Assembly (NCBI RefSeq): GCF_000376445.1
Contig: NZ_AQXI01000001.1
Location: 2,877,734-2,941,733 of the forward strand
DNA from: Haladaptatus paucihalophilus DX253
GTDB lineage: Archaea; Halobacteriota; Halobacteria; Halobacteriales; Haladaptataceae
Direction of reading: 5' to 3'
Length of the DNA: 64,000 nt
Part shown: positions 41,012 to 53,462 of the stretch, piece after piece
Numbering within the stretch: position 1 is the first letter of the stretch
How the letters are laid out: each line of letters begins with the position of its first letter
Notes under the pieces: generated by a model
What the model saw: the letters and a program-made list of their open reading frames with translations, nothing else
What the model was told of the DNA's origin: nothing
Database searches by the model: none
Translations under genes and position numbers: made by a program

Positions 41012-42088
41012 TCAGAACAGGTCGTCTATCTCGTCGTTGTGGAACATCTCGGCGGGGTCTTCCTCGCGCGTTTCCTGCTTGTTCGCTTCCTTCGCGCGCT
41101 CCATGAACTCCTGCATGCGCGGCGAACGTTCGACGCCGCCGAGGAGGACGAGCGAGGCGAGTCGTTCGCTGTCGAGCGGGAAGTCCCCGCCGCGAACCTG
41201 CAGACTGCCGGTTTCGCCTTCGAGCCATCGCCGGGCCTTTTCGACACCCTTCCGCGGAATCCTGTCGGCGTCGCCCGCGACGACCAACAGCGCGGAATCC
41301 GCATCCGTCGCCTTCGGCATGCTGAGGTTGCTCAGAACCGCTTGCCGGGTGTTGCTCGTCACGGTGTTGATGTTCTCGCCGCTGTCCTCGCTGGCACCGG
41401 CGCTGGCGTAGCCGAGCGCCGCGACGCCGCCCGAGCGAAGCGTGTTGATGACTTCGCTCGAATCCACGACGCTTTCGCCGACGCCTTCGACCGCCTCGCC
41501 GGACGCGAGAAGCAGGCCGACGCGCTGGGCTATCTGCTGGTTGATGTTCTCGAACGCCTCGCCGACGCTCTGGCCCGTCTCGTGCCACGCGTCGTTGTCG
41601 ATGAGGAGGGTCGCGTCGGCCTCGCGGATGACGGTCTTCAGCGAGCGTCCCGCGTTGGCTTGGTACATCGCCCCTTCGCCTTGCCCGGGGAGGACGCCGA
41701 GCGCGTAGACGGGTATTTCGTAGATTCGCTGGAGTTCGTGGATGAGGACCGGCGCGCCGCCGCTTCCGGTTCCGCCGCCGAGTCCCGCGACAACGAAGAG
41801 GGCGTCGGCCCTCGCGGTGATGCGGCCGTCGAGGGCGTTCATCACTTCACCGGCGTCGTCTTGCATCACTTCCGCGCCGAGTTCGTTATCTCCGCCGACC
41901 CCGTGGCCCTTCACTCGGTCTTGGCCGACGAGGACGGTATCGAGGTCGAGCGATTGCAGGTCGGTTTTCGCGGAGTTGATAGCCAACGCGCCTTGAACCG
42001 CGTTGAAATCCATGTTCGCGTCGAATTCTACCAGTCTCTGAGTGAGTTTTCCTCCCGCTTGACCCACCCCAATCAGGACGACTTTCAT
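41012..42088 (-). CDS. cetZ: CetZ-type tubulin/FtsZ family protein
   Basis: A 358-residue tubulin-superfamily GTPase of the haloarchaeal CetZ group, which affects cell shape and motility. Motifs: VVLIGVGQAGGKL at the N-terminus, the G-box GLGGGTGSGG (about 102-111), and the T7-type region SSEVINTLRSGG. The C-terminus is acidic (EMFHNDEIDDLF). Which CetZ paralogue this is cannot be assigned. ATG at 42088 is preferred over the frame start 42169, whose codons include Cys/Phe-rich non-coding-like sequence. It diverges from the coiled-coil gene of the secretion cluster. Confidence 0.9.
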   Translation of the reverse strand: MKVVLIGVGQAGGKLTQRLVEFDANMDFNAVQGALAINSAKTDLQSLDLDTVLVGQDRVKGHGVGGDNELGAEVMQDDAGEVMNALDGRITARADALFVVAGLGGGTGSGGAPVLIHELQRIYEIPVYALGVLPGQGEGAMYQANAGRSLKTVIREADATLLIDNDAWHETGQSVGEAFENINQQIAQRVGLLLASGEAVEGVGESVVDSSEVINTLRSGGVAALGYASAGASEDSGENINTVTSNTRQAVLSNLSMPKATDADSALLVVAGDADRIPRKGVEKARRWLEGETGSLQVRGGDFPLDSERLASLVLLGGVERSPRMQEFMERAKEANKQETREEDPAEMFHNDEIDDLF

Positions 42089-42191
42089 GGGCGATGGAAC
42101 TGATTCACGACATATGAATTTTCCGACGTAATACGGCGTAAATATCGAGAAACAAAGGAAAAGAAACACCTCTTTCTCGGTCTACGAAGCC

Positions 42192-42198
42192 TTAAATA
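42192..42198 (+). promoter_or_regulatory. TATA box of the secretion-like operon
   Basis: TTAAATA lies 24-30 nt before the ATG at 42222, so the first gene of the cluster is leaderless. Confidence 0.6.
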
Positions 42199-42221
42199 GG
42201 AAAACGCGCCCAACACCGACG

Positions 42222-42743
42222 ATGCCCGACCTCGAAACGCTTTCCGAACGAGTGTCAACACTCGAACAAACGCTGACGGACGGTGAAATTCCCGCACTAC
42301 AGGACGATGCGGAACTCCGCCGGACGACGGCCGACCTCGCCGCGCGGATGGACGAACTCGAAACCGAACTGGACGAACTCGACGCCGCGGTCCAAGCCCT
42401 TCGCGGCTACGTCGGCAACATTCGTGCGGTCAACGACGACGTGGAGCGCCGCGTAGACGCCGCTCTAGCGAAGGCGGAAGCGTGCCAGTCAGACACCTCG
42501 AAACGGAGTTTCGAAACCGGGAGGAACCGGACGGCTTCCCGGTCGAATCGGGTAACCTCCGCGAGGCAGTTCGGGATGGATTCCGAGAGCGGTTCGAAAA
42601 CCGGCCGACAGCACTCAGGTAACGATTCCGAAGGTTCCGGCCGGTCGAACCCTCCATCACCGTACGAAATTCCACGCACCGACGGCGACCGCACCGAATC
42701 GGGAGACCGTTCGCTCACGGCGCGCCTCCGCGAGTTGTTGTGA
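42222..42743 (+). CDS. Coiled-coil protein, first gene of the Tad-like operon
   Basis: A 173-residue soluble protein. Residues 5-90 show a heptad-like coiled coil (LETLSERVSTLEQTL, ELRRTTADLAARMDELETEL, LDAAVQALRGYVGNI). The rest is Ser/Gly/Arg-rich and probably disordered. NCBI lists similar proteins as a haloarchaeal coiled-coil family (DUF7310, from memory). The TTAAATA promoter supports the ATG. The stop overlaps the next gene (GTGA at 42740-42743), so it belongs to the secretion-like cluster. Confidence 0.82.
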   Translation: MPDLETLSERVSTLEQTLTDGEIPALQDDAELRRTTADLAARMDELETELDELDAAVQALRGYVGNIRAVNDDVERRVDAALAKAEACQSDTSKRSFETGRNRTASRSNRVTSARQFGMDSESGSKTGRQHSGNDSEGSGRSNPPSPYEIPRTDGDRTESGDRSLTARLRELL

Positions 42744-43282
42744 GCGTTCGCACCGTTCTCGCCGTAGTGCTCGCGCTCGCCCTCTGTAGCGTCTCCGTTC
42801 CCGCCATCGACCACGCCCGTCGGGACCGGGCGACGTACCGCGCCGACGCGGAACTGGCGACCGTCTCGCGCTCGATGACCGACCTCGCCGACGAAACCGC
42901 TGTCAGGTTCGGCGACCTTCCACCGACCGGGGGCGGTCCGCGCGGCGCGCGAAGAGTGGTTTCGCTGTCGCTCCCGCCCGAATCCGTGACGGTGGGACGG
43001 ATCGAGTTCGTCGCCATCGGCGGCGTTCCCGGCCGTCAGAGTTTGAAAGACGACTTCGGAGACGTGCTCGCGTATCGTGTCGCGGGCGGATCGACCCGCG
43101 TCCGACACGTCCCGTTCGACGTTCGCATCGCGACGAGAAGCGAGACGGATGGCGGGTGGACCGTCCGACCGGACGGAGAACCTCTCGTCGTCCACGCACC
43201 CGCTCGGCGGGACATCGCGCTGCTGTTGGTCGAATACCGCGGACGTCGGACCGTCCTCGTCGTCCCGGCGGCTCAACTTTAA
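42740..43282 (+). CDS. Single-TM secreted-side protein of the Tad-like operon
   Basis: A 180-residue protein starting at GTG, overlapping the coiled-coil gene. It has a signal/anchor helix (TVLAVVLALALCSVSVPAID, 5-24) and then a mostly beta exterior domain (RRVVSLSLPPESVTVG, TVRPDGEPLVVHAPA, GRRTVLVVPAAQL). It resembles the N-terminal anchor plus pseudopilin-like layout. I recall it as DUF7311, but the number is from memory. Its last codons contain the promoter of the ATPase gene. Confidence 0.78.
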   Translation: MSVRTVLAVVLALALCSVSVPAIDHARRDRATYRADAELATVSRSMTDLADETAVRFGDLPPTGGGPRGARRVVSLSLPPESVTVGRIEFVAIGGVPGRQSLKDDFGDVLAYRVAGGSTRVRHVPFDVRIATRSETDGGWTVRPDGEPLVVHAPARRDIALLLVEYRGRRTVLVVPAAQL

Positions 43283-43283
43283 G
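43278..43283 (+). promoter_or_regulatory. Internal promoter for the secretion ATPase
   Basis: TTTAAG lies 26-31 nt upstream of the ATPase ATG at 43309, inside the final codons of the preceding gene. It allows separate, leaderless expression of the ATPase. Confidence 0.55.
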
Positions 43284-43308
43284 ACGGAGAACGCGACCAC
43301 GGAAGTCC

Positions 43309-45372
43309 ATGTGGAACCCACTGTCGAGCGCTTCGTCCGACGACCGAGACTGCCGCTGTGACCCCTCGTTCGACGGCGCGACGCTGACCGTCGATGCGGA
43401 CGACTGTCCCGGAAACGGCGAACTCGCTGAACGCCCCGCGTGCCGCGCAACAGTCATCGACGCGCTCACCGACCGCGACGCGGACCGAATCGTGTCGCGG
43501 GCGACCGGCGTCGAACGGACGTACGAAGGCGACGGCGCGGCGTTTCTCGTGGCGGCAGGACGGTTCGTCGAGCGTGTCACCGCCCACGACGACACGCTCG
43601 CGGAACGAGCGCGTTCCGACCCGATTCGGGCGGGCGTGGATGCCGTCGGACGGGCGGGACCGGTTTTCGACATCGCCGCGGAAACCGGCCTCGCGGAGGG
43701 CGTCCATCGGTTCGACGACTATTCGGCCCTCTTTCGTCCGTTCGTCGGGCCGACCATCGCCCGGTCGCAAGTGTCGCTCCGTCCGCCCGCGGACGCCCGA
43801 CTTGACGACCGGTATTCGCTTTCGACCGGCGCGACGGTTCGCCACTACGAGGCGGGAACCGACGCGGAGCGGTCCGGTGAATCGCGTCGTATCTATCACC
43901 TCGAACCGCTGGAGTACGACCTCGGACCCGACGCGTTCGAAACGCTCGACCGGGCCGCGACGCACCTCGCAAACGGCGGCGTTACGGAAGGGGAGCGAGC
44001 ACCGGGCCGTGCCGTCCGGGCAGTCGCGGAGGCGGGAGTAGTCGCGGATGCGGGAGAAGTCACGGATGCAGGGGCGAAGGCGGGGGTGAGTACGGGAGCA
44101 GGGGCGAACGAGGATGCGAACGTAGACGCCCTCACCGACGTTCTCCGGAAGTACACGCACGGATACGGCGTCCTCACGGACTTGTTCGCCGACCCGGCCG
44201 TCTCCGACGTGTTCGCAACCGCCCCCGTCGGCGACAATCCGCTTCGCGTGCGAGCGGACGGCGAGGAGATGGAGACGAACGTCCACCTCACCGCGGACGG
44301 AGCGGCGTCGCTCGCATCCCGCTTTCGGCGAACGAGCGGGAGAGCGTTCTCGCGTGCGAGCCCGACCCTCGACGCCGTTGCCGAAATCGACGGCACGACC
44401 GTTCGCGTCGCGGGCGTGACCGACCCGGTTAGCGACGGCATTGGCTTTGCTTTCCGCGTTCAGTCCGAAGAACGGTGGACCCTCCCTGCACTGGTCGCAA
44501 ACGGAACGCTTCCATCGGACGCGGCCGCCCTCCTCTCGGTCGGGGTCGAACGCGATGGAACCGGACTCGTCGCCGGACCGCGCGGGGCGGGGAAGACGAC
44601 GCTCCTCGGAGCGTTGCTCTGGGAACTCCCGCCGCGAGTCAGAACCGTCGTCCTCGAAGACACGCCGGAACTACCGGTCGAATCCTTGCAGGGAGACGGC
44701 CGCGACGTGCAGTTACTCCGGACGACGGCGAACGACGACGAACCCGGACTCCGCCCGGCCGACGCGCTTCGGACGGCCCTCCGGTTGGGGGACGGCGCGC
44801 TCGTCGTCGGAGAAGTCCGCGGCGAGGAGGCGAGCGTACTGTACGAAGCGATGCGCGTCGGCGCGAGCGGCAACGCCGTCCTCGGGACGATACACGGCGA
44901 TTGCGGCGATGCGGTGTACGAACGAGTCGTCACCGACCTCGGCGTCCCGCCTTCTTCGTTCGCGACGACCGAGTTCGTCGTCACCCTCGAATCCTACGAA
45001 ACCGACGGCACGCACGGAAAGCGGGTAAAGCGTATCGAGGAGGTCGTTACGAACGGGGACCCGGAAACGGACGGCGCCGACCCGGTGCGGTTCGAACCGC
45101 TGTACGAACTCGACGGCGGGGACCTCGTTCCGACCGGTCGGATCGAGCGGGGAAACAGCGTCCTCGTCGCCTCGCTCGCCGAATCGACGGAGACGTACGC
45201 GGACGTTCGGGCGGCGCTCGCCGCCCGAACTCGGGGTATCGAGCGTCGCGTCGAACGGGTCGCGCCCTCGTTCGAGGTCTCGACGAACCGAATCGGAGAT
45301 AATCGATTCGGAACCGACGGAATTGGGAGTGCCCAAATCAGGAGTGGCCAAATCGGGGGCGACTCGGCGTGA
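43309..45372 (+). CDS. Type II/IV secretion system ATPase (TadA/VirB11-like)
   Basis: A 687-residue ATPase that powers pilus assembly or secretion. The C-terminal motor has Walker A GPRGAGKTTLL (about 425), the Asp box VVLEDTPELP, Walker B-like GALVVGEVRGEEA, and the His box TIHGDC. The first 230 residues form a haloarchaeal-specific N-domain. A low-complexity Ala/Gly/Val insert (DAGEVTDAGAKAG, about 240-270) links the parts. The final 25 residues repeat IG/SG-type sequence. It is the motor of the surrounding operon. Confidence 0.92.
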   Translation: MWNPLSSASSDDRDCRCDPSFDGATLTVDADDCPGNGELAERPACRATVIDALTDRDADRIVSRATGVERTYEGDGAAFLVAAGRFVERVTAHDDTLAERARSDPIRAGVDAVGRAGPVFDIAAETGLAEGVHRFDDYSALFRPFVGPTIARSQVSLRPPADARLDDRYSLSTGATVRHYEAGTDAERSGESRRIYHLEPLEYDLGPDAFETLDRAATHLANGGVTEGERAPGRAVRAVAEAGVVADAGEVTDAGAKAGVSTGAGANEDANVDALTDVLRKYTHGYGVLTDLFADPAVSDVFATAPVGDNPLRVRADGEEMETNVHLTADGAASLASRFRRTSGRAFSRASPTLDAVAEIDGTTVRVAGVTDPVSDGIGFAFRVQSEERWTLPALVANGTLPSDAAALLSVGVERDGTGLVAGPRGAGKTTLLGALLWELPPRVRTVVLEDTPELPVESLQGDGRDVQLLRTTANDDEPGLRPADALRTALRLGDGALVVGEVRGEEASVLYEAMRVGASGNAVLGTIHGDCGDAVYERVVTDLGVPPSSFATTEFVVTLESYETDGTHGKRVKRIEEVVTNGDPETDGADPVRFEPLYELDGGDLVPTGRIERGNSVLVASLAESTETYADVRAALAARTRGIERRVERVAPSFEVSTNRIGDNRFGTDGIGSAQIRSGQIGGDSA

Positions 45373-47081
45373 TCGTGCGACGCTTCGAGTCGCTCTGTGC
45401 TCGCCTCGCATCCCTCTACCCGTGGGACGTGTCGGCGGAAGACGACATCGACCGGGCCATCGGCTTTCTGGGAGGAGAAATCGACAGCGTTGCAGTCGGT
45501 CGGGGTGCGAACGGTGCGGCGGTTTTCGGGTGTTTCGTCGCCGTCGTCGGTGCGGCCGTGGCTCCGCCAGCGCTCCGCATCGTAGTCGGGGTGCTGCTGG
45601 TCGCCATCGCCGTCGGCTTCTCCTCTCTGCTTCGACATCTACCCGAACTCCTCGCCGCCGCGAAGCGGACGCAAGCGCTCGGCGACGCGCCCGACCTCGC
45701 GGCCCGCGCCGTGTTGTGGATGCGGATAGAACCGACCGCGGAAGGGGCCGCCGCGTTCGCTGCACGGACGGGTGATGGCCCGCTCGCGTCGAGTCTGGGC
45801 GACCACGTTCGACGCTCGGTCGGGTCGCCGATGGCCGGACTGACAACGTTCGCGGCCGAGTGGGAACCGTGGAACCCGCCGCTTCATCGGTCGATGGTAC
45901 TGATTTCGGCGGCGAGCGAGGCACCACCGGGGGAACGAGCGCGGACGTTGGACCGCGCACTCGCCGCGATTCTCGACGGGACGCGAGAACGGATGGCGGA
46001 GTTCGTCGCCGAGATTCGCGGGCCAGCGACGGCGTTGTACGCTTTCGGCGTCCTGCTTCCGCTGGCGCTGGTCGCGGTGCTTCCGGCGGCGCGAACCGCG
46101 GGACTGCCGCTGTCGCCCGCCGTGTTGGTCGCCGGTTACGACGTTCTGCTTCCCGCACTCCTGCTGGCGACGAGCGTGTGGTTGCTCACCCGTCGGCCGG
46201 TCGCGTTTCCGCCGCCGGACGTCTCGCGGTCACACCCCGACGTTCCCGAAAGACTGTGGCCGGTCATAATTTCCGGCCTCGGTGCTGGCGGTCTCGCGCT
46301 GGTCGTCACGACGGTTTTCCTCCCCGGATGGACGCGCTGGATAGCCTGCTTCGGCTGTCTCGTCGGTGTCCTACTGGTCGGGGTGACGCGTCCGACGGTT
46401 CTCGTCAGAAACCGGGTTCGAGCGGTCGAAGCGGACCTCACGGACGCGCTCTATCTCGTCGGTCGCCGGGTGAAGGAAGGATTGGCGGTCGAGACGGCCA
46501 TCGTCGCCGCTGCAGACGAAATCGGTGGGGAGACGGGTGCCGTCTTCGAGCGAGCCACGCGAATACAGCGACAGCTCAGGATGGGCGTTCGGGAGTCGTT
46601 TCTCGGCGACTACGGGGCGCTTTCGACGGTACCGAGTCCGCGCGCTCGGAGCGCCGTGGCACTCCTCGCGCTCGCCGCGGACGAGGGGCGACCCGCTGGC
46701 GGTGCCGTTCTGGCGATGGCCGACCACTTGGACGACCTGCAGAGCGTCGAACGCGAGGCGCGACGCGAGCTTTCGCAAGTGACCGAGACCCTCCGACATA
46801 CGGCGGCGATATTCGGGCCCCTCGTCTCGGGTGCGACCGTCGCGCTGGCGGGCGGAATGTCGGGCATGGGTGGTTCGTTCGGGAGCGCGTTTCCGGTGGA
46901 TGTACTGGGCCTCGCGGTCGGCATCTACGTCCTCTGTCTTTCGGCCATCGTCACGACGCTCGCGGTCGGACTCGAACACGGACTCGACCGGACGCTGGTC
47001 GGCTACCGCGTCGGCCATTCCGTGTTGTCCGCGACCGTCGTGTACCTCCTCGCGTTCGTGCTGGCGGGTGCGCTGACCTGA
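45369..47081 (+). CDS. Type II secretion F-type membrane protein (TadB-TadC/FlaJ-like, two modules)
   Basis: A 570-residue integral membrane platform protein with two T2SSF-like modules (about 60-250 and 330-540), each carrying pairs of long TM helices. The second module reads VGRRVKEGLAVETAIVAAAD and RAVALLALAADEGRPAGG-like stretches. The start is GTG at 45369, overlapping the ATPase stop. Its length and double module resemble FlaJ/TadBC fusions, which form the inner-membrane base that the ATPase turns. Confidence 0.9.
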   Translation: MIVRRFESLCARLASLYPWDVSAEDDIDRAIGFLGGEIDSVAVGRGANGAAVFGCFVAVVGAAVAPPALRIVVGVLLVAIAVGFSSLLRHLPELLAAAKRTQALGDAPDLAARAVLWMRIEPTAEGAAAFAARTGDGPLASSLGDHVRRSVGSPMAGLTTFAAEWEPWNPPLHRSMVLISAASEAPPGERARTLDRALAAILDGTRERMAEFVAEIRGPATALYAFGVLLPLALVAVLPAARTAGLPLSPAVLVAGYDVLLPALLLATSVWLLTRRPVAFPPPDVSRSHPDVPERLWPVIISGLGAGGLALVVTTVFLPGWTRWIACFGCLVGVLLVGVTRPTVLVRNRVRAVEADLTDALYLVGRRVKEGLAVETAIVAAADEIGGETGAVFERATRIQRQLRMGVRESFLGDYGALSTVPSPRARSAVALLALAADEGRPAGGAVLAMADHLDDLQSVEREARRELSQVTETLRHTAAIFGPLVSGATVALAGGMSGMGGSFGSAFPVDVLGLAVGIYVLCLSAIVTTLAVGLEHGLDRTLVGYRVGHSVLSATVVYLLAFVLAGALT

Positions 47082-47136
47082 GTGCTCACGGGTGTTCGTT
47101 CTCGGGTGTCCCGTCCCCCGATATTCTCGGCGTACA

Positions 47137-47142
47137 TTTAAG
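47137..47142 (+). promoter_or_regulatory. Promoter before the pilin-like gene group
   Basis: TTTAAG lies 26-31 nt before ATG 47168. It marks a second transcription start for the downstream pilin-like genes. Confidence 0.55.
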
Positions 47143-47167
47143 TACGAAAACGGGACCATTCCGTCCC

Positions 47168-47662
47168 ATGTTCGACGCACCCCTCGACGCGTGGTACGTC
47201 TGGCTCGGCGTGACGGTTGTCAGTTTCGCCGTCCTCGGCGTCGCCATCGAACTGCCGACCGCACCGCCGCCGAACGCCGCAAGTGTCGCCGATACGGTCG
47301 ATTCCGTCGCCGGATGCACCTACACCGCGACCGCCGAACACCCGCTGTCGGCGCGGAAGATAAAGCTCGGTCCGCGGCGGTTGGGGCTGAACGGGAAGGG
47401 CGGAATCGCGCACGCGACGTTCGCGTACGGTCCGGTCGTTCCAGTCGTTCCCGACGGGGGAAGGCGTTCCGACTCCACTTCCCGACTGAACCGCGTGTTG
47501 TCCGGGTCGCCGCCGTCCGCGGTGTTCGATTCGCCCGCCGACTTCCGCGCGGCGATACGGGAATCCAGAGACCACCAGTCGGTCTGGCGACGGGCGCATA
47601 GCACGCTTCGCGTTCGCTGTGTTTCGTGGGAGGGAGTCGATGCGACGCTGGTCTCCGGGTAG
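47168..47662 (+). CDS. Small single-TM protein of the Tad-like cluster
   Basis: A 164-residue protein with an N-terminal helix (WYVWLGVTVVSFAVLGVAIE, 9-28) and an exterior domain that begins PTAPPPNAASVADTVD and later has GPRRLGLNGKGGIAHATFAY. It resembles haloarchaeal pilus-cluster proteins (DUF7283, number from memory). ATG at 47168 follows the TTTAAG promoter. Its stop lies inside the next gene (overlap 47640-47662). Confidence 0.78.
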   Translation: MFDAPLDAWYVWLGVTVVSFAVLGVAIELPTAPPPNAASVADTVDSVAGCTYTATAEHPLSARKIKLGPRRLGLNGKGGIAHATFAYGPVVPVVPDGGRRSDSTSRLNRVLSGSPPSAVFDSPADFRAAIRESRDHQSVWRRAHSTLRVRCVSWEGVDATLVSG

Positions 47663-48038
47663 GGCACAGACCGAACCCGTCGCGGCCATCGTCGCCGTCT
47701 TCGCGGTCTGTTTCGGACTGCTCGCCTACACCGGCGTCCTCGGCGACGCGATGCCTCGATCCGAGCGAACTCTCGGACCGACGACGCTTTCGTCAGTTCG
47801 GGACGCCGCGAGTTCGAACGGCATCTTGATTCCCACGCGTCTCGCGGAGTCCTCCGCGACGCCCGACGGCTATCACTGCAACGTTACGCTCACGGTAGGA
47901 AAGCGTGAGTGGCACGACGGGCCGACGCCACCGCCGAACGCCAAAGTTCCGAGCAGCCCAGCGGCAACGACGGTGAGCGTTCGAATCGCGCCGGGTGACG
48001 TTCGACCGGGACGGCTCCGCGTGGTGGTGTGGAAATGA
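47640..48038 (+). CDS. Type IV pilin-like protein of the Tad-like cluster
   Basis: A 132-residue pilin-like protein. The N-terminus RRWSPGRAQTEPVAAIVAVF has the archaeal prepilin pattern: a basic leader ending in Gly, then a Gln-Thr-Glu-Pro start and a long hydrophobic helix. PibD would cut after Gly7 (inference). The rest is a short exterior beta domain (GYHCNVTLTVGKREW). Start at 47640, overlapping the previous gene by 23 nt; its own stop overlaps the next start at 48035. Confidence 0.8.
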   Translation: MRRWSPGRAQTEPVAAIVAVFAVCFGLLAYTGVLGDAMPRSERTLGPTTLSSVRDAASSNGILIPTRLAESSATPDGYHCNVTLTVGKREWHDGPTPPPNAKVPSSPAATTVSVRIAPGDVRPGRLRVVVWK

Positions 48039-48868
48039 GGGCCATCAGCACCGTTCTCGACGTGACCCTGTGCCTGCTGCTGGTCAGCGCCAGTGCTTTC
48101 GTCCTCGCCGGAGCGAGGCCACCGCAATCGACAGCGCGGACGCGAACGGCCGAATCGACGGCGAACGTCCTCACGACCAGCACCGCCGGACTGAACTACA
48201 CGATTCGGACCGACGACGGAGCGATTCATCGGACGACACGCGGTACCCTCGCCGGACTGCTCGGCCAGACCGCACTGGCAAACGCGTCCGTTCGCGGAGC
48301 CGAACTGTCACGGGCGAGCGACCCGTTCGAGCACGCGGTCGCTCGCCGTGTGCGAGAACGACTCGACCGCCCGTCCCGCATGCGACTCCTCGTCCAATGG
48401 GAACCGTATCGGAACGCTCACCTTCGAGGGCGGTTCGCCGTCGGTAAATCACCGCCGCCCCAAGTGGACGTTCACGCGGCTGAGATCACGCTTCCGAACA
48501 AATTTCCGCCGGTTCGAGAGCGAGCACTCGACGCCGCTCGACGCGGCGGTTACCGCGACGTCGCGCGGGTCGTCGCCGCCGGAATCGTTATCGGTCTGGT
48601 TCCGAACCGAACGACGACGCTGGCGCTACACGACCGCGAGACGGGAGCGACGGTTGCGGCTCGACTCAGACGGTTGGTTCGGCTGTACGACGTGTATGGG
48701 TTGGATACGAACACTCTCACCACTGACCGAGCGAGACGTGCACTCATCGACGCGCTGACCGCCGCCGTCGAAGCCGACCTCCGGTCAACGTTCCGGACGC
48801 CGACCGAGGCTGCCCGGTCGGTGTCGCTCGGCGAGACGCGACTCGTCGTCAGGACGTGGGACGCGTGA
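48035..48868 (+). CDS. Pilin-like single-TM protein of the Tad-like cluster
   Basis: A 277-residue protein with a pseudopilin-type start MRAISTVLDVTLCLLLVSAS, where the helix begins almost at once. The outside part is Arg-rich and helical (YRDVARVVAAGIVIGLVPNR, AARLRRLVRLYDVYGL). It overlaps both neighbours by 4 nt. It resembles the DUF7284 group (number from memory). There is no catalytic signature, and it probably forms a minor pilin or assembly factor. Confidence 0.78.
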   Translation: MRAISTVLDVTLCLLLVSASAFVLAGARPPQSTARTRTAESTANVLTTSTAGLNYTIRTDDGAIHRTTRGTLAGLLGQTALANASVRGAELSRASDPFEHAVARRVRERLDRPSRMRLLVQWEPYRNAHLRGRFAVGKSPPPQVDVHAAEITLPNKFPPVRERALDAARRGGYRDVARVVAAGIVIGLVPNRTTTLALHDRETGATVAARLRRLVRLYDVYGLDTNTLTTDRARRALIDALTAAVEADLRSTFRTPTEAARSVSLGETRLVVRTWDA

Positions 48869-51800
48869 ACCTCGCCGACGACACCCGCGGACGGGTACCG
48901 TTCGCGTTGATCGGCGTCCTACTGCTGGTCGGGAGTCTCTCCTTCGCGGGTGCGCTGGTGGCTCGACCGGCACCGCACGTGAACGAGAATGTGGAGCAGA
49001 GCATGCGAACCGTAACCGCCGGAACTCGGACGGCGCTCCGCGGGGCGGTCCGACAGGCCGGTCGGGAAGCGGCCGCCGAACCGCTCGTTCGTCCGGCGAA
49101 CACGACCGCCGGGCGGGTTATGGACGGCGCAGCTCCGTTTCGGGACTACCTCCGCCTTCGAATCTATCTTACAGCGCGGGAACGATTGCGTTCGGTGGGT
49201 GCCCACGGCGGCGACGTGCGTGCGACCGCATCGCTCCCGGCGACGCCGAACGCGACGGCACTTCGACGGGCGAAGCGACGAGTCCACGTCGAACCGGTCG
49301 GGAACCTGACGGAGGCCGGGCTACGGGTTCGCATCGACGGCGTGTCGATGCGTGCGACCCGCGGCGGGACAACCGTCGCCGCCACGAAGAAAAACGTGAC
49401 GCTCGTGGTTGAAACGCCGGTTCTGGCGCTGCACGAGCGCGTTCAGCGATTCGAGCGGCGGCTCGACAGCGGGCCGCTCGACCCGGGACTCGGCCGTCGA
49501 CTGACCGCCCGGCTCTACGCGGTAACGTGGGCACGAGGATACGCACAGTATGGCGGAGCACCGATTGCAAACGTACTGTCGAACCGCCACATCGAGTTGC
49601 TGACGAACGGCGCGATTCTCGAAGAGCAGACGAAATCGTTCGGGACGAGTGACCCCGACGGACGACGGGGAGTTCGTCGTGCAACCGCTCGCGTCGGTCT
49701 CACCGACCTTCTCGTTCCGACGACCCAACACGGAAAGCTCTGGACGGACCTCGTTCTGAACACGGCGGGTGGGGGCGGTGCGGACGGCACCATCGACGGT
49801 TCACTCGATGCGGCGTCGGAACCGCTCGACTCCGCGCATTCCCCCGAAACGGGAATGAACATCGGCGTGAACGAATCGGCGGAGCGTGCACTCTTGGACC
49901 TCATCGACGGCGGCGAGTCGAGCGAGTTGGACGCCGCAATCGGGTCGGCGTATCGCGTTTCCGTCCGCCCAGTTGCGAGCGTTCGAACCGTCCGCGACGA
50001 ACTGAAACCGCATCCCCGTCCGCCGGGTGAGGGATGGACGCTCCGGGATGAGCGAACGAAAACGCACGTTTCGGTCCAAAACGCCAGTGCGTCGTCTCCC
50101 GGAACACGGCGGGGCTGGCACCTCCTCTGGACCGGTGCCCGTCGTGTCGTTCGAACGCACACCGTCGTTCGGCGGTGGGAGCGGGAAGACACGACGCAGG
50201 ATGAGAATCGCGGGTGGACCGCGCGATTGCCGTTCCCCGGCACTTCGCCACGACCACAACCGACGCCGCCGGGACCCACACCTCCGACGCAACCACGGCC
50301 ACCGACGAATCGAACCGTCCGAACGACCCACCGGTGGACGGACGAGTTCGTCGTCTCGCTCGGCGTCGCTGGCGACCACGTGACGACGGACCGCGCACCG
50401 GTTCGACCCCTTCCGAGCGCCCACGAGGCGAATGGGGCCGCCGGGCCGAACCTCGCGGACGTTCGGGGAATGGCGATAGAACGTCTCGTCACCGACCGCG
50501 GCGGCGCGGACGGGTTGGCACGTCGTGCGAGCGTCGGAACGATGAACACGCGAGCGGTCGCGGTGCAGGGTCGATATTCGAATTTGCTTCGAGCGCGGGC
50601 GTACCGCGACGTGCGGTCGCTTCGGAACCGGGTTCGAAACCGCTCGGTGACCGTTTCCCGCGGGACTCTCGCAACTGGCGGAACGAATCCGGCGGCGAAA
50701 CTGGCGTCGTCCCTTCGCGCCGACCGAAGCGCGCTGATCGGCGTACCCGCGAGATACGAGGACGCCGCCGAACGGGCGCGATACGCGGCCCGTGCGACGT
50801 ATCTCGATGCCGTCATCGACCGACTCGATAGCAGGGCGGAGCGTACCCGTCGAACGCGGATGGGACTCGGCAGGGCGGTGCGGGACGCGACGGGCGTCTC
50901 GCTCGACCGAATTCGACGGATATTCGCGGCTCGTCGGAGGGTCACCTCTCCGTCCACGCATCGGCTGCGAACGAGCGGCCCCGGAACACCGGTCAATATC
51001 AGCGTCGATGGCGCACCGCCGTATCTGACGCTTTCGGCGGTGAAACATCGCCACGTTTCGGCCGTCCCGCGCGGGTCGAAGACCTACCCGCTTTCGGCGC
51101 GGAACGTCAACCTGTTCACGGTTCCGTCGTCCGACATTTCGGACGGCATCGTTTCGCTGCTCCCGGATGGACGAAAGCCGAAACGAGTTCGGCTACGGAC
51201 CGCTGGCGTCGCGCTTCGGGCAGCGAACGAGACGCTTGCGACTGAAACGAACGCGTCGCTTCGACGACGACGCGACGACCTTCAGCGGGCGCTGTCTTCA
51301 TCGATAGGCGATATCGAACGAAACGTCCGGGGCGAACTCGCCGCGAGCGACGCCATCGAACTCGATAGGTCGGAGCGTCGAACGGCCGTTCACCGCGGAG
51401 TGACCCGCTGGCGGACGACGGCGAATCGGGCCAGTGCTATCGCGAACGGTTCGGCTGCTGGGAGTATCGCACGAGCGGTCGAAAGGGAACGTCGGGACGA
51501 TTGGAGCCGAATGCGACGCGATGCGGCGACGATTCGGATTCGGTTCGCGCTCGAATCGGCACGACGGGACGTCGATGGGGTACGCCAGTCGAGCGTCGCA
51601 CCGACCGTCTCCACGACCCGCCGCGTTCTCGTGACGGAGCTGAAAGCGGCGGTACAACAGGGCATCGAAAATCGGGTGCAGCAGCGATTGAACGAATCCA
51701 TCAACGAAACCGTCGGGGACTTACCGGCGGGACTGCCGGTCGTTCCCGTCCCCGGCTACTGGTACGCGACGGTCAACGTCTGGCAGGTGGACGTGTCGGG

Positions 51801-52233
51801 GACGTACGCTCGGTTCACGGTTCGGGCGCGTGAGGGCTCGCCAACCACACCGGGTGCGTCGGTCGCGTATTCCCGGCAAGCCGGACCCGTCCGATTGGAC
51901 ACGGACGACGATGGGACGAAGGAACTGCTCGGGCGGACGACGCCGGTTTCGTTCGATACGGGAACGACGGTCGTCGTCGCGGTACCGCCGGGGAAGACGG
52001 GCGTCGGTGACGTGGACGGGAACGCCGACGAGCGCTCTCCCGGCTGGTCGAACCGGAGTGACAACCCATTTGATGCCGCAGACCTTCGTGACGACCATGC
52101 TCTACGACGAGATAGACGACCCCGGCGAGATGACGCCGACGGAACTCCACGGACGGTACGCGGCGGAGCTCTCGGAGACGATATCGTCGGTCGGTATCGA
52201 CGAGGTGGTGGAACTGACGGGACTCGACCGTGA
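48865..52233 (+). CDS. Very large pilin-cluster exterior protein
   Basis: A 1122-residue protein, starting at GTG 48865 (overlapping the previous stop), with an N-terminal TM (VPFALIGVLLLVGSLSFAGA) after RGR. The remainder is a long exterior region with many helical stretches (TRTALRGAVRQAGREAAAEP, ALVRPANTTAG) and a Pro-rich linker (PRPQPTPPGPTPPTQPRPP, about 470-490). Near the end come PVSFDTGTTVVVAVPPGKTG and ERSPGW. Normally such a protein would stop near this point, but the frame runs on and overlaps the next gene by 137 nt, so the tail is doubtful. It resembles DUF7286 (number from memory). Confidence 0.82.
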   Translation: MNLADDTRGRVPFALIGVLLLVGSLSFAGALVARPAPHVNENVEQSMRTVTAGTRTALRGAVRQAGREAAAEPLVRPANTTAGRVMDGAAPFRDYLRLRIYLTARERLRSVGAHGGDVRATASLPATPNATALRRAKRRVHVEPVGNLTEAGLRVRIDGVSMRATRGGTTVAATKKNVTLVVETPVLALHERVQRFERRLDSGPLDPGLGRRLTARLYAVTWARGYAQYGGAPIANVLSNRHIELLTNGAILEEQTKSFGTSDPDGRRGVRRATARVGLTDLLVPTTQHGKLWTDLVLNTAGGGGADGTIDGSLDAASEPLDSAHSPETGMNIGVNESAERALLDLIDGGESSELDAAIGSAYRVSVRPVASVRTVRDELKPHPRPPGEGWTLRDERTKTHVSVQNASASSPGTRRGWHLLWTGARRVVRTHTVVRRWEREDTTQDENRGWTARLPFPGTSPRPQPTPPGPTPPTQPRPPTNRTVRTTHRWTDEFVVSLGVAGDHVTTDRAPVRPLPSAHEANGAAGPNLADVRGMAIERLVTDRGGADGLARRASVGTMNTRAVAVQGRYSNLLRARAYRDVRSLRNRVRNRSVTVSRGTLATGGTNPAAKLASSLRADRSALIGVPARYEDAAERARYAARATYLDAVIDRLDSRAERTRRTRMGLGRAVRDATGVSLDRIRRIFAARRRVTSPSTHRLRTSGPGTPVNISVDGAPPYLTLSAVKHRHVSAVPRGSKTYPLSARNVNLFTVPSSDISDGIVSLLPDGRKPKRVRLRTAGVALRAANETLATETNASLRRRRDDLQRALSSSIGDIERNVRGELAASDAIELDRSERRTAVHRGVTRWRTTANRASAIANGSAAGSIARAVERERRDDWSRMRRDAATIRIRFALESARRDVDGVRQSSVAPTVSTTRRVLVTELKAAVQQGIENRVQQRLNESINETVGDLPAGLPVVPVPGYWYATVNVWQVDVSGTYARFTVRAREGSPTTPGASVAYSRQAGPVRLDTDDDGTKELLGRTTPVSFDTGTTVVVAVPPGKTGVGDVDGNADERSPGWSNRSDNPFDAADLRDDHALRRDRRPRRDDADGTPRTVRGGALGDDIVGRYRRGGGTDGTRP

Positions 52234-52531
52234 GACCGTCGAGTCAATCGCCGACGGCGAGACCGCCGACGACCTGTCGCTCGAAGACGCCGCCGCGATT
52301 CTCGCCACCGAGGAGGGCACGCCGGAGAAGGATGCCATCCTCCTCGAAGTGCGCGACCACCTCCTGATGGGGATGACGACCGGCCTCTTGGACGTGGACA
52401 CGCTCGCACGGGACATCGACGGCGACTTCGAGGCGCGCGCCGTCCAGCAGAAAATCGAGGGGCGAGCGCCGATGTCTGTGGAGGAGTACGCGCTCGTTCA
52501 CCACGCCATCGCGCAGCGAAACGACCGATAG
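52097..52531 (+). CDS. Acidic protein at the end of the cluster (DUF5791-like)
   Basis: A 144-residue acidic soluble protein: MLYDEIDDPGEMTPTELHGR at the start, LTGLDRETVESIADGETADD and LSLEDAAAILATEEG, probably an all-helical DNA- or protein-binding module. It resembles the haloarchaeal family DUF5791. The ATG at 52097 lies inside the frame of the large protein, so one of the two gene ends is wrong or the overlap is real. It is the last gene in the run before the epimerase. Confidence 0.8.
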   Translation: MLYDEIDDPGEMTPTELHGRYAAELSETISSVGIDEVVELTGLDRETVESIADGETADDLSLEDAAAILATEEGTPEKDAILLEVRDHLLMGMTTGLLDVDTLARDIDGDFEARAVQQKIEGRAPMSVEEYALVHHAIAQRNDR

Positions 52532-52607: not shown

Positions 52608-53462
52608 ATGAACGTCGCAGTGCTCGGATGCGGCTACGTCGGGTGCGAACTCGCGCGGGAGTTGCTCGCGGACGGTCACGAGGTCGTCGGCGTGCGACGC
52701 TCGTCCGAGGGGCTTCGGGCGGTCGAAAAAACGGGTGCCGACGCGGTGCGGGCGGACGTAACGGACGGCGATTCGCTGTCCTCGATTCCCGACGCGAACG
52801 TGCTCGTCTACGCGGTGAGCGCCGACGGCCGGGATTCGGCGGCGGCGCGCACGGCCTACGTCGAGGGACTTCGGACCGCGCTCGATCACTTCGCGGCCCG
52901 CGAGTCGTCACCGGAGCGCGTCGTCTACACGTCGAGTACCGGCGTGTACGGCGACCGTGACGGTGCTCGCGTGGACGAATCGACGCCGCTGGAGCCCCGA
53001 ACCGAACGAGAGGAGATCCTGGCTGACGCCGAGGAAATCGTGCGGGCGGAGCGAGGGTGGGACTGGACGATAACCCGGTTCTCGGGGTTGTACGGTCCCG
53101 ACCGGTATCGACTGGAGCGCTATCTGGAGGGTCCTGTCTCGGACCGATATCTGAACCTGCTCCACCGCGACGACGCGGCGGGGACGATTCGATACCTCCT
53201 CGACACCGGACGGGGGCGAAACGAGGTCGTTCTGGTTTCGGACGACGAACCGGTTCGGAAGCCGACGCTCGCAGATTGGCTCGCGGACGAGTGCGGCGTT
53301 TCCCACCCGCCGAGGGAACCGGCGACGAGCGAGCGAGCGCGAGCGAGCAAGCGCTGCTCGAACGAAAAGCTCCGCGAGTTAGGGTACGAACTCCGGTACC
53401 CGACGTACAGGGAGGGGTATCGGGGGGCCATCGAATCGTTCCGGGATTCACAAAACGTCTGA
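52608..53462 (+). CDS. NAD-dependent epimerase/dehydratase (SDR) protein
   Basis: A 284-residue extended-SDR-like enzyme. It opens with a Rossmann motif MNVAVLGCGYVGCELARELL. The catalytic region is less standard: VYTSSTGVYGDRDGARVDES contains Ser and Tyr, but the Tyr-x3-Lys motif is not clear. The sequence resembles YeeZ-type small epimerase-like proteins that also lack full catalysis. FSGLYGPDRYRLERYLEG is the substrate-side stretch. No overlapping partners. Confidence 0.88.
   Translation: MNVAVLGCGYVGCELARELLADGHEVVGVRRSSEGLRAVEKTGADAVRADVTDGDSLSSIPDANVLVYAVSADGRDSAAARTAYVEGLRTALDHFAARESSPERVVYTSSTGVYGDRDGARVDESTPLEPRTEREEILADAEEIVRAERGWDWTITRFSGLYGPDRYRLERYLEGPVSDRYLNLLHRDDAAGTIRYLLDTGRGRNEVVLVSDDEPVRKPTLADWLADECGVSHPPREPATSERARASKRCSNEKLRELGYELRYPTYREGYRGAIESFRDSQNV

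Follow-up and report, generated by a model that had tools for sequence, protein, structure and literature searches.

The nine genes at positions 42222-52531 of a 64,000-nucleotide stretch of the Haladaptatus paucihalophilus DX253 genome (contig NZ_AQXI01000001.1, positions 2,877,734 to 2,941,733; hereafter, the window) probably encode the motor, the membrane platform and the minor subunits of a PilB2/PilC2 pilus-like machine. We put the probability at roughly 0.7 that this operon is one of three co-regulated loci that together specify the machine. The other two are a divergent gene pair encoding a DUF7382 pilin-like protein and a HerA-like ATPase, and an operon encoding DUF7856, DUF7857 and a ParA/MinD ATPase. 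This view is built on the identities of the genes, their conserved synteny, a promoter element that they share, their co-occurrence among haloarchaeal genomes and their linkage in cis in relatives. A sequence-only reading of the window had described a single Tad-like operon; that reader could not see the spread of the machine, which the promoter element, co-occurrence and clustering extend to three loci.

All nine genes are intact and lie on the + strand. Overlaps of 4 nt, ascribed earlier to most of them, occur at four of the eight junctions, whereas the remaining junctions measure +26, +86, -23 and about -104 nt. The first gene encodes DUF7310, a coiled-coil protein of 173 residues (42222-42743; Pfam 93.5 bits, with support from synteny), followed by DUF7311 (180 residues, one N-terminal transmembrane segment; 42740-43282; Pfam 122.9 bits). 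The VirB11/TadA-type assembly ATPase PilB2 has 687 residues and an N-terminal CxC...C...C segment (43309-45372; Pfam T2SSE 65.6 bits), and the putative TadC/FlaJ-like membrane platform PilC2 has 570 residues (45369-47081). Four subunit genes follow: DUF7283, 164 residues with a single transmembrane segment and a conserved MFDAPxDAWYVW start (47168-47662; Pfam 190.8 bits); DUF7285, a prepilin-like protein of 132 residues (47640-48038; Pfam 121.6 bits and a predicted model); DUF7284, a pilin-like protein of 277 residues (48035-48868; Pfam 259 bits); and DUF7286, 1122 residues with one transmembrane segment after its start, a candidate large, possibly tip, subunit (48865-52233; Pfam 1143 bits). 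DUF5791 is the ninth gene. In a hidden Markov model search every operon protein matched a Pfam family, the platform weakly and below the T2SSF cut-off. The five proteins noted as single-transmembrane each carry one N-terminal hydrophobic segment, and the one noted as exceeding 1100 residues is DUF7286.

The identification of the ATPase as TadA/PilB-like holds up well, with a T2SSE match at 4e-18 and intact GPRGAGKT, GEVRG and GTIHGD motifs. Its best NCBIfam match is the TadA family TIGR03819 (1.6e-35), but at 122.9 bits it falls short of the cut-off of 373 for a bacterial TadA equivalog. The score for an archaellum FlaI/ArlI equivalog likewise falls short (NF058587, 74.6 bits against a cut-off of 550), and the archaellin-family matches of the genome lie outside the operon. 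The closest solved relatives in a PDB sequence search are archaeal GspE (2oap), FlaI and CpaF. Among PilB relatives, a strict pattern for the CxC...C...C start is found in 52 of 90, and the cysteines are visible by eye in most of the other rows. The platform protein was provisionally identified by its length, transmembrane pattern and synteny; it has about seven hydrophobic segments, and T2SSF matches its second half at 17.5 bits, below the curated cut-off of 25.2.

Upstream, a tubulin-like cetZ2 gene is transcribed divergently from the operon (41015-42088, - strand; Pfam CetZ_C 215 bits). Its product scores 492 bits against PDB entry 4b45 and 326 bits against 4b46, which we take to be CetZ2 and CetZ1 of Haloferax volcanii, respectively. 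By gene content and order, the operon is the pilB2/pilC2 type IV pilus system of haloarchaea, which diverges from cetZ2 and is known from genes alone. In the main text of Makarova 2016 (PMC4858521), a halobacterial subclade 4F system is described with a coiled-coil protein and an FtsZ-like neighbour, and that of Brown and Duggin 2023 (PMC9856176) reports that pilB2/C2 regulons adjoin cetZ2 and have arCOG04674, an epimerase gene and an exopolyphosphatase-like gene in their vicinity. The regulon layout of the latter is that of the window. Three marks of the 4F/pilB2-C2 type given in the text of PMC4858521 are present, namely the coiled-coil DUF7310 (which fits the description of arCOG07564 there), the CetZ neighbour and the cysteine-rich ATPase N-terminus, and context and ATPase features together support a provisional assignment to subclade 4F. 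Because the operon matches both published descriptions, it is not an undescribed system. The sequence-only reading was sound in seeing a type IV pilus operon of Tad-like kind, its cargo unknown, and in pointing to internal promoters and to CetZ. It was mistaken in suggesting a possibly distinct surface machine, given that the system was described in silico in 2016 and 2023. Its ATPase belongs to a known pilus by description, though not by experiment. The accompanying premise that archaeal pili have fewer and smaller subunits also fails, as the text of PMC4858521 describes many-subunit systems, including those of the pilB2/C2 type. The name PilB2 itself is ambiguous: H. volcanii PilB2 has been assigned to 4C (PMC6491452), whereas FtsZ-linked loci were placed in 4F (PMC4858521), and the pil-2 locus of Halobacterium salinarum, which has seven genes (PMC4292770), may be a different system.

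The three loci are tied together in part by a promoter element of the general form TTTAW-N~12-GNCCA-N~9-ATG. In the window, TTTAA-N12-GACCA-N9-ATG occurs with identical spacing at the pilB2 start ATG43309 (TTTAAGACGGAGAACGCGACCACGGAAGTCCATG, 43278-43311, + strand) and at the DUF7283 start ATG47168 (TTTAAGTACGAAAACGGGACCATTCCGTCCCATG, 47137-47170, + strand). In both cases the centre of the TATA box lies about 28 nt 5' of the ATG, the distance expected for leaderless haloarchaeal transcripts. A third, similar promoter with the same spacing precedes the first gene as the variant CTTAA-N12-GCCCA-N9-ATG (CCTTAAATAGGAAAACGCGCCCAACACCGACGATG, 42190-42224, + strand) and is conserved at DUF7310 starts in relatives. 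Across 2.15 Mb of haloarchaeal DNA, all 47 matches to a strict pattern fall at DUF7310, pilB or DUF7283 starts, with none for the reversed control; a looser pattern places 146 of its 165 matches at these starts, with five for the control. The two internal promoters proposed at 43278 and 47137 are well supported because the element recurs at the same starts far above chance. That it might be a general feature of leaderless promoters was rejected by comparison with all other starts in the same DNA. An exact copy of the element also lies at a gene for a NucS-N/topoisomerase-zinc-ribbon protein (L153, G000:C1:2117104), and a single match lies at a nucleotidyltransferase gene (L157).

A search for the element in the genome itself and 14 others led to DUF7857 genes with a ParA/MinD ATPase gene directly behind them and to divergent DUF7382 and HerA-like genes, identified by Pfam. 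The divergent pair (L260) lies at G000:C1:2382273-2383734, each gene with an operon-like promoter, and the DUF7856-DUF7857-ParA/MinD operon (L261), at about G000:C1:1921600-1923850, carries the same element. Among 30 DUF7382 loci, 25 DUF7382 starts and 13 HerA-like starts carry the looser element, as do 14 DUF7857 starts among 30 DUF7857 loci; no further match occurs in the 195 kb that these loci comprise. The HerA-like gene adjoins DUF7382 in 28 of its 30 loci and ParA adjoins DUF7857 in 29 of 30. The HerA-like ATPase matches PF01935 (DUF87) at 33.5 bits against a cut-off of 23.2, has HerA relatives in the PDB, and conserves Walker motifs, DEAH and TRGRxPG...ATQRP...SQ in an alignment of 36 sequences.

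The joint inheritance of these genes provides the second link. DUF7286 is found in 151 of 194 haloarchaeal genomes, about three quarters. By far the commonest order in a sample of 101 loci (80 of them named) is cetZ2(-)-DUF7310-DUF7311-pilB-pilC-DUF7283-DUF7285-DUF7284-DUF7286-DUF5791-epimerase-DHH. The window itself comes closest to Haladaptatus. With E cut-offs that we set ourselves for DUF7382 and the HerA-like ATPase, DUF7286 and DUF7382 occur together in 150 of the 194 genomes, alone in one and two, respectively, and neither in 41; the corresponding counts are 144, seven and one, and 42 for DUF7286 and the HerA-like gene. For DUF7286 and DUF7857 they are 144, seven and two, and 41. All four genes are present in 140 genomes and none in 40. 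Fisher values for these associations, which ignore kinship, range from 1e-32 to 1e-38. The genes also vary jointly inside genera: in genus g6, six genomes have all four, whereas G004 and G034 have none. In nine other, related genomes (L251-L259) the DUF7857-ParA genes, the DUF7382/HerA-like pair and the pilus operon lie in one cluster, complete in most; a second ParA/MinD-like gene lies nearby in most of these clusters. Co-occurrence, joint variation within genera and clustering in these nine genomes constitute strong evidence that the three loci form one system. Two genomes retain fragments covering only the last quarter of DUF7286 (G012:C1:2158541-2159317 and G067:C1:406692-407426) and lack the HerA-like and DUF7857 genes, a pattern suggestive of decay of the system as a whole.

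Several of the subunits have starts that resemble those of prepilins. The prepilin motif noted earlier is RAQTEP of DUF7285, and an alignment of haloarchaeal relatives, whose usual start is M-S-R-S-S...R[GA]QxEP, shows it to be conserved. At the motif level, class III (prepilin)-like signals are seen in R[GA]QxEP of DUF7285 and in RAIEGLP of DUF7382. The latter protein has about 160 residues, a conserved RAIEGLP[IV]RLVIALVVGVA start and a small Ig/carboxypeptidase-regulatory-like domain. Its presence in almost every genome with DUF7286 and its location away from the operon, as for PilA pilins, make it the strongest candidate for the main pilin. Part of the DUF7284 family carries R[AG][IV]STVxD. 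In L010, L013, L091, L095 and others, however, the DUF7284 start codon immediately precedes the hydrophobic segment (MTSTVLDA, MNAAIDA), leaving nothing to cleave, so that a possible prepilin leader is gone. DUF7286 has the nearly invariant start R[GA]R[VI]PFAL[VI]GVLLLV. The single-chain model of DUF7285 (predicted local distance difference test, pLDDT, 86.6), obtained with an alignment of sequences from the window and related loci, combines a broken N-terminal helix with a four-stranded sheet, an architecture compatible with a pilin or pseudopilin. Its best matches, to the C-terminal domain of ribosomal uS3 (Z 6.5-7.3), were discounted as a common alpha/beta arrangement. The AlphaFold model of DUF7286, also a single chain, has a pLDDT of 80.5, its alignment including loci from the genome search as well as from the search for relatives; a profile of the family gave no match to PDB sequences at E<=1.

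The Pfam match of DUF7286 covers residues 8-1064 of a 1125-residue frame. The end of this frame (52058-52233) lies beyond the match and overlaps DUF5791 by at least 100 nt in another frame. DUF7286 proteins of relatives mostly have about 1000-1060 residues, so this genome may have lost the usual stop codon.

From these components we infer how the machine would work. A single prepilin peptidase would cleave class III-like leaders from DUF7382, from DUF7285 and probably also from DUF7286. Searches of the genome gave one Peptidase_A24 gene, outside the window; neither a prepilin peptidase nor an archaellin gene lies near the operon, as had been noted, and their encoding elsewhere in the genome is usual in haloarchaea. 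PilB2 and PilC2 would then polymerise DUF7382, or possibly DUF7285, into a filament, with DUF7283, DUF7284, DUF7285 and DUF7286 as minor subunits. On account of its size, DUF7286, with some 1100 residues, is the most likely occupant of the filament tip. The linked ParA/MinD and CetZ2 proteins suggest placement in the cell, which DUF7857-ParA and perhaps CetZ2 may direct, and the HerA-like ATPase may drive a second, unknown step.

Several observations weigh against this proposal. The R[GA]R[VI]PFA start of DUF7286 would put Arg at +1, which is unusual for a cleavage site, and neither DUF7283 nor DUF7311 has a prepilin-like leader, so that not all subunits need be pilins. The DUF7286 model has no Foldseek match below 1e-3 in the PDB and no convincing match to a known fold, its highest VIA-align score, Z 6.2 for 125 residues, falling in the noise range for helical models; the DUF7285 model has no clear match to a solved pilin in the PDB, with none among the best rows listed. 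Genome-wide, the promoter element also matches unrelated sites outside the regulon. Genus g20 (G036, G037, G049 and G099) has full-length DUF7286, DUF7382 and DUF7857 without a HerA-like gene, which makes it a natural test of whether the filament needs this ATPase, and DUF7857 is missing from G129 and G190 despite a full-length DUF7286. In the literature, no experiment on the PilB2/C2 system and no pilin, substrate or phenotype was found.

The same components admit other functions. An attachment filament like those of PilB1 and PilB3, with the HerA-like ATPase, ParA and DUF7857 serving only in regulation or positioning, is possible but on the unlikely side: adhesion is a role of other PilB-C paralogues in haloarchaea (PMC6491452, PMC4292770), and ParA/MinD proteins go with many pili according to the text of PMC4858521, but descriptions of adhesion pili include neither a HerA-type ATPase nor a conserved subunit of 1100 residues, and adhesion is already provided for by other PilB paralogues. 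We hold it improbable that the set is a DNA-moving machine akin to the crenarchaeal Ced/Ted systems, in which the pilus would catch hold of DNA or of another cell, the HerA-like ATPase would drive DNA through the envelope and ParA/MinD would deliver or place it. The genetic tie between the pilus and a HerA-family ATPase with conserved motifs makes a DNA-moving role for this ATPase possible, and Ted loci likewise hold VirB4/HerA-like and ParA/MinD-like genes (PMC9905601). However, no CedA/VirB6-like channel was noticed among the linked genes, although no dedicated search was made, genus g20 lacks the ATPase, and HerA-fold ATPases do other jobs. Deletion of pibD reportedly leaves mating in H. 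volcanii unaffected (cited in PMC7749143), which disfavours mating as the function. Distinctly speculative is a DNA-handling pilus with a DUF7382 filament and a DUF7286 tip, placed by DUF7857-ParA and CetZ2, in which a co-inherited HerA-type pump takes up or passes on DNA; if true, it would be the euryarchaeal equivalent of Ced/Ups, based on a true type IV pilus. Most doubtful is a secretion system in which short DUF7285/DUF7284 pseudopili push out folded cargo and DUF7286 is cargo or receptor, as the TadA/GspE-type ATPase, several minor pilin-like proteins and absence of an obvious main pilin gene from the operon might suggest, given that the pilin-like DUF7382 gene, in trans, shares the regulation and inheritance of the operon and that the linked genes show no conserved secreted enzyme.

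At the 3' end of the operon, DUF5791 (52130-52531, + strand; Pfam 158 bits) is conserved downstream of DUF7286, fits arCOG04674 by position and is a predicted regulator according to the text of PMC9856176; its translation may in fact begin at an ATG some 33 nt further upstream. The flanking NAD-dependent epimerase gene (52608-53462, + strand) shows conserved synteny and fits arCOG03095 by position, in line with the text of PMC9856176. Searches for tRNAs and Rfam RNAs found none in the 64-kb window.

Beyond the published descriptions, as far as the main texts of PMC4858521 and PMC9856176 go, the promoter element, the co-occurrence, the one-cluster genomes and the prepilin-like start of DUF7382 newly tie the three loci together. 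DUF7382, the HerA-like ATPase, DUF7857-ParA and the shared promoter element are unnamed in these main texts; the supplementary tables may list some of them. Literature searches under the DUF names and under guessed H. volcanii HVO locus numbers gave nothing relevant. Four lines of evidence thereby turn an orphan operon into a defined machine that can be tested in the model organism H. volcanii, which has DUF7286 and DUF7857 and yields a match to DUF7382. The partner loci offer a function to seek behind the cetZ2 linkage, and the promoter element provides a class-wide signature whose regulator can be hunted.

Among known systems, the pilB2-C2/4F regulon of PMC4858521 and PMC9856176, as described in their main texts, shares the ATPase with its putative platform partner, the coiled-coil protein, several pilin-like proteins and a large surface protein, together with the divergent cetZ2 and the flanking DUF5791, epimerase and DHH genes. 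The PilB3-C3/PilA adhesion pilus of H. volcanii shares PilB and PilC homologues, pilins encoded in trans and a common prepilin peptidase, but belongs to clade 2, has PilA-family pilins and no described HerA-like or DUF7286 partner, and has an adhesive role shown experimentally. With the bacterial Tad pilus (TadA, TadC, TadZ), the operon has in common a TadA-like ATPase, the best NCBIfam match, whereas a Pfam scan of the window proteins gave no secretin or TadE/F/G family match. The ParA/MinD-like partner resembles TadZ in kind, and we know of no Tad counterpart of the HerA-like ATPase. The crenarchaeal Ced and Ted systems with their Ups pili (PMC9905601, PMC11868833) likewise unite a HerA/VirB4-type ATPase, a ParA/MinD-like gene and a pilus in one set. 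They differ in a CedA/VirB6 channel and a CedA1/VirB2-like pilin, neither noticed among the linked genes here, where no dedicated search was made for them, and in that the haloarchaeal HerA-like ATPase is co-inherited with the type IV pilus itself.

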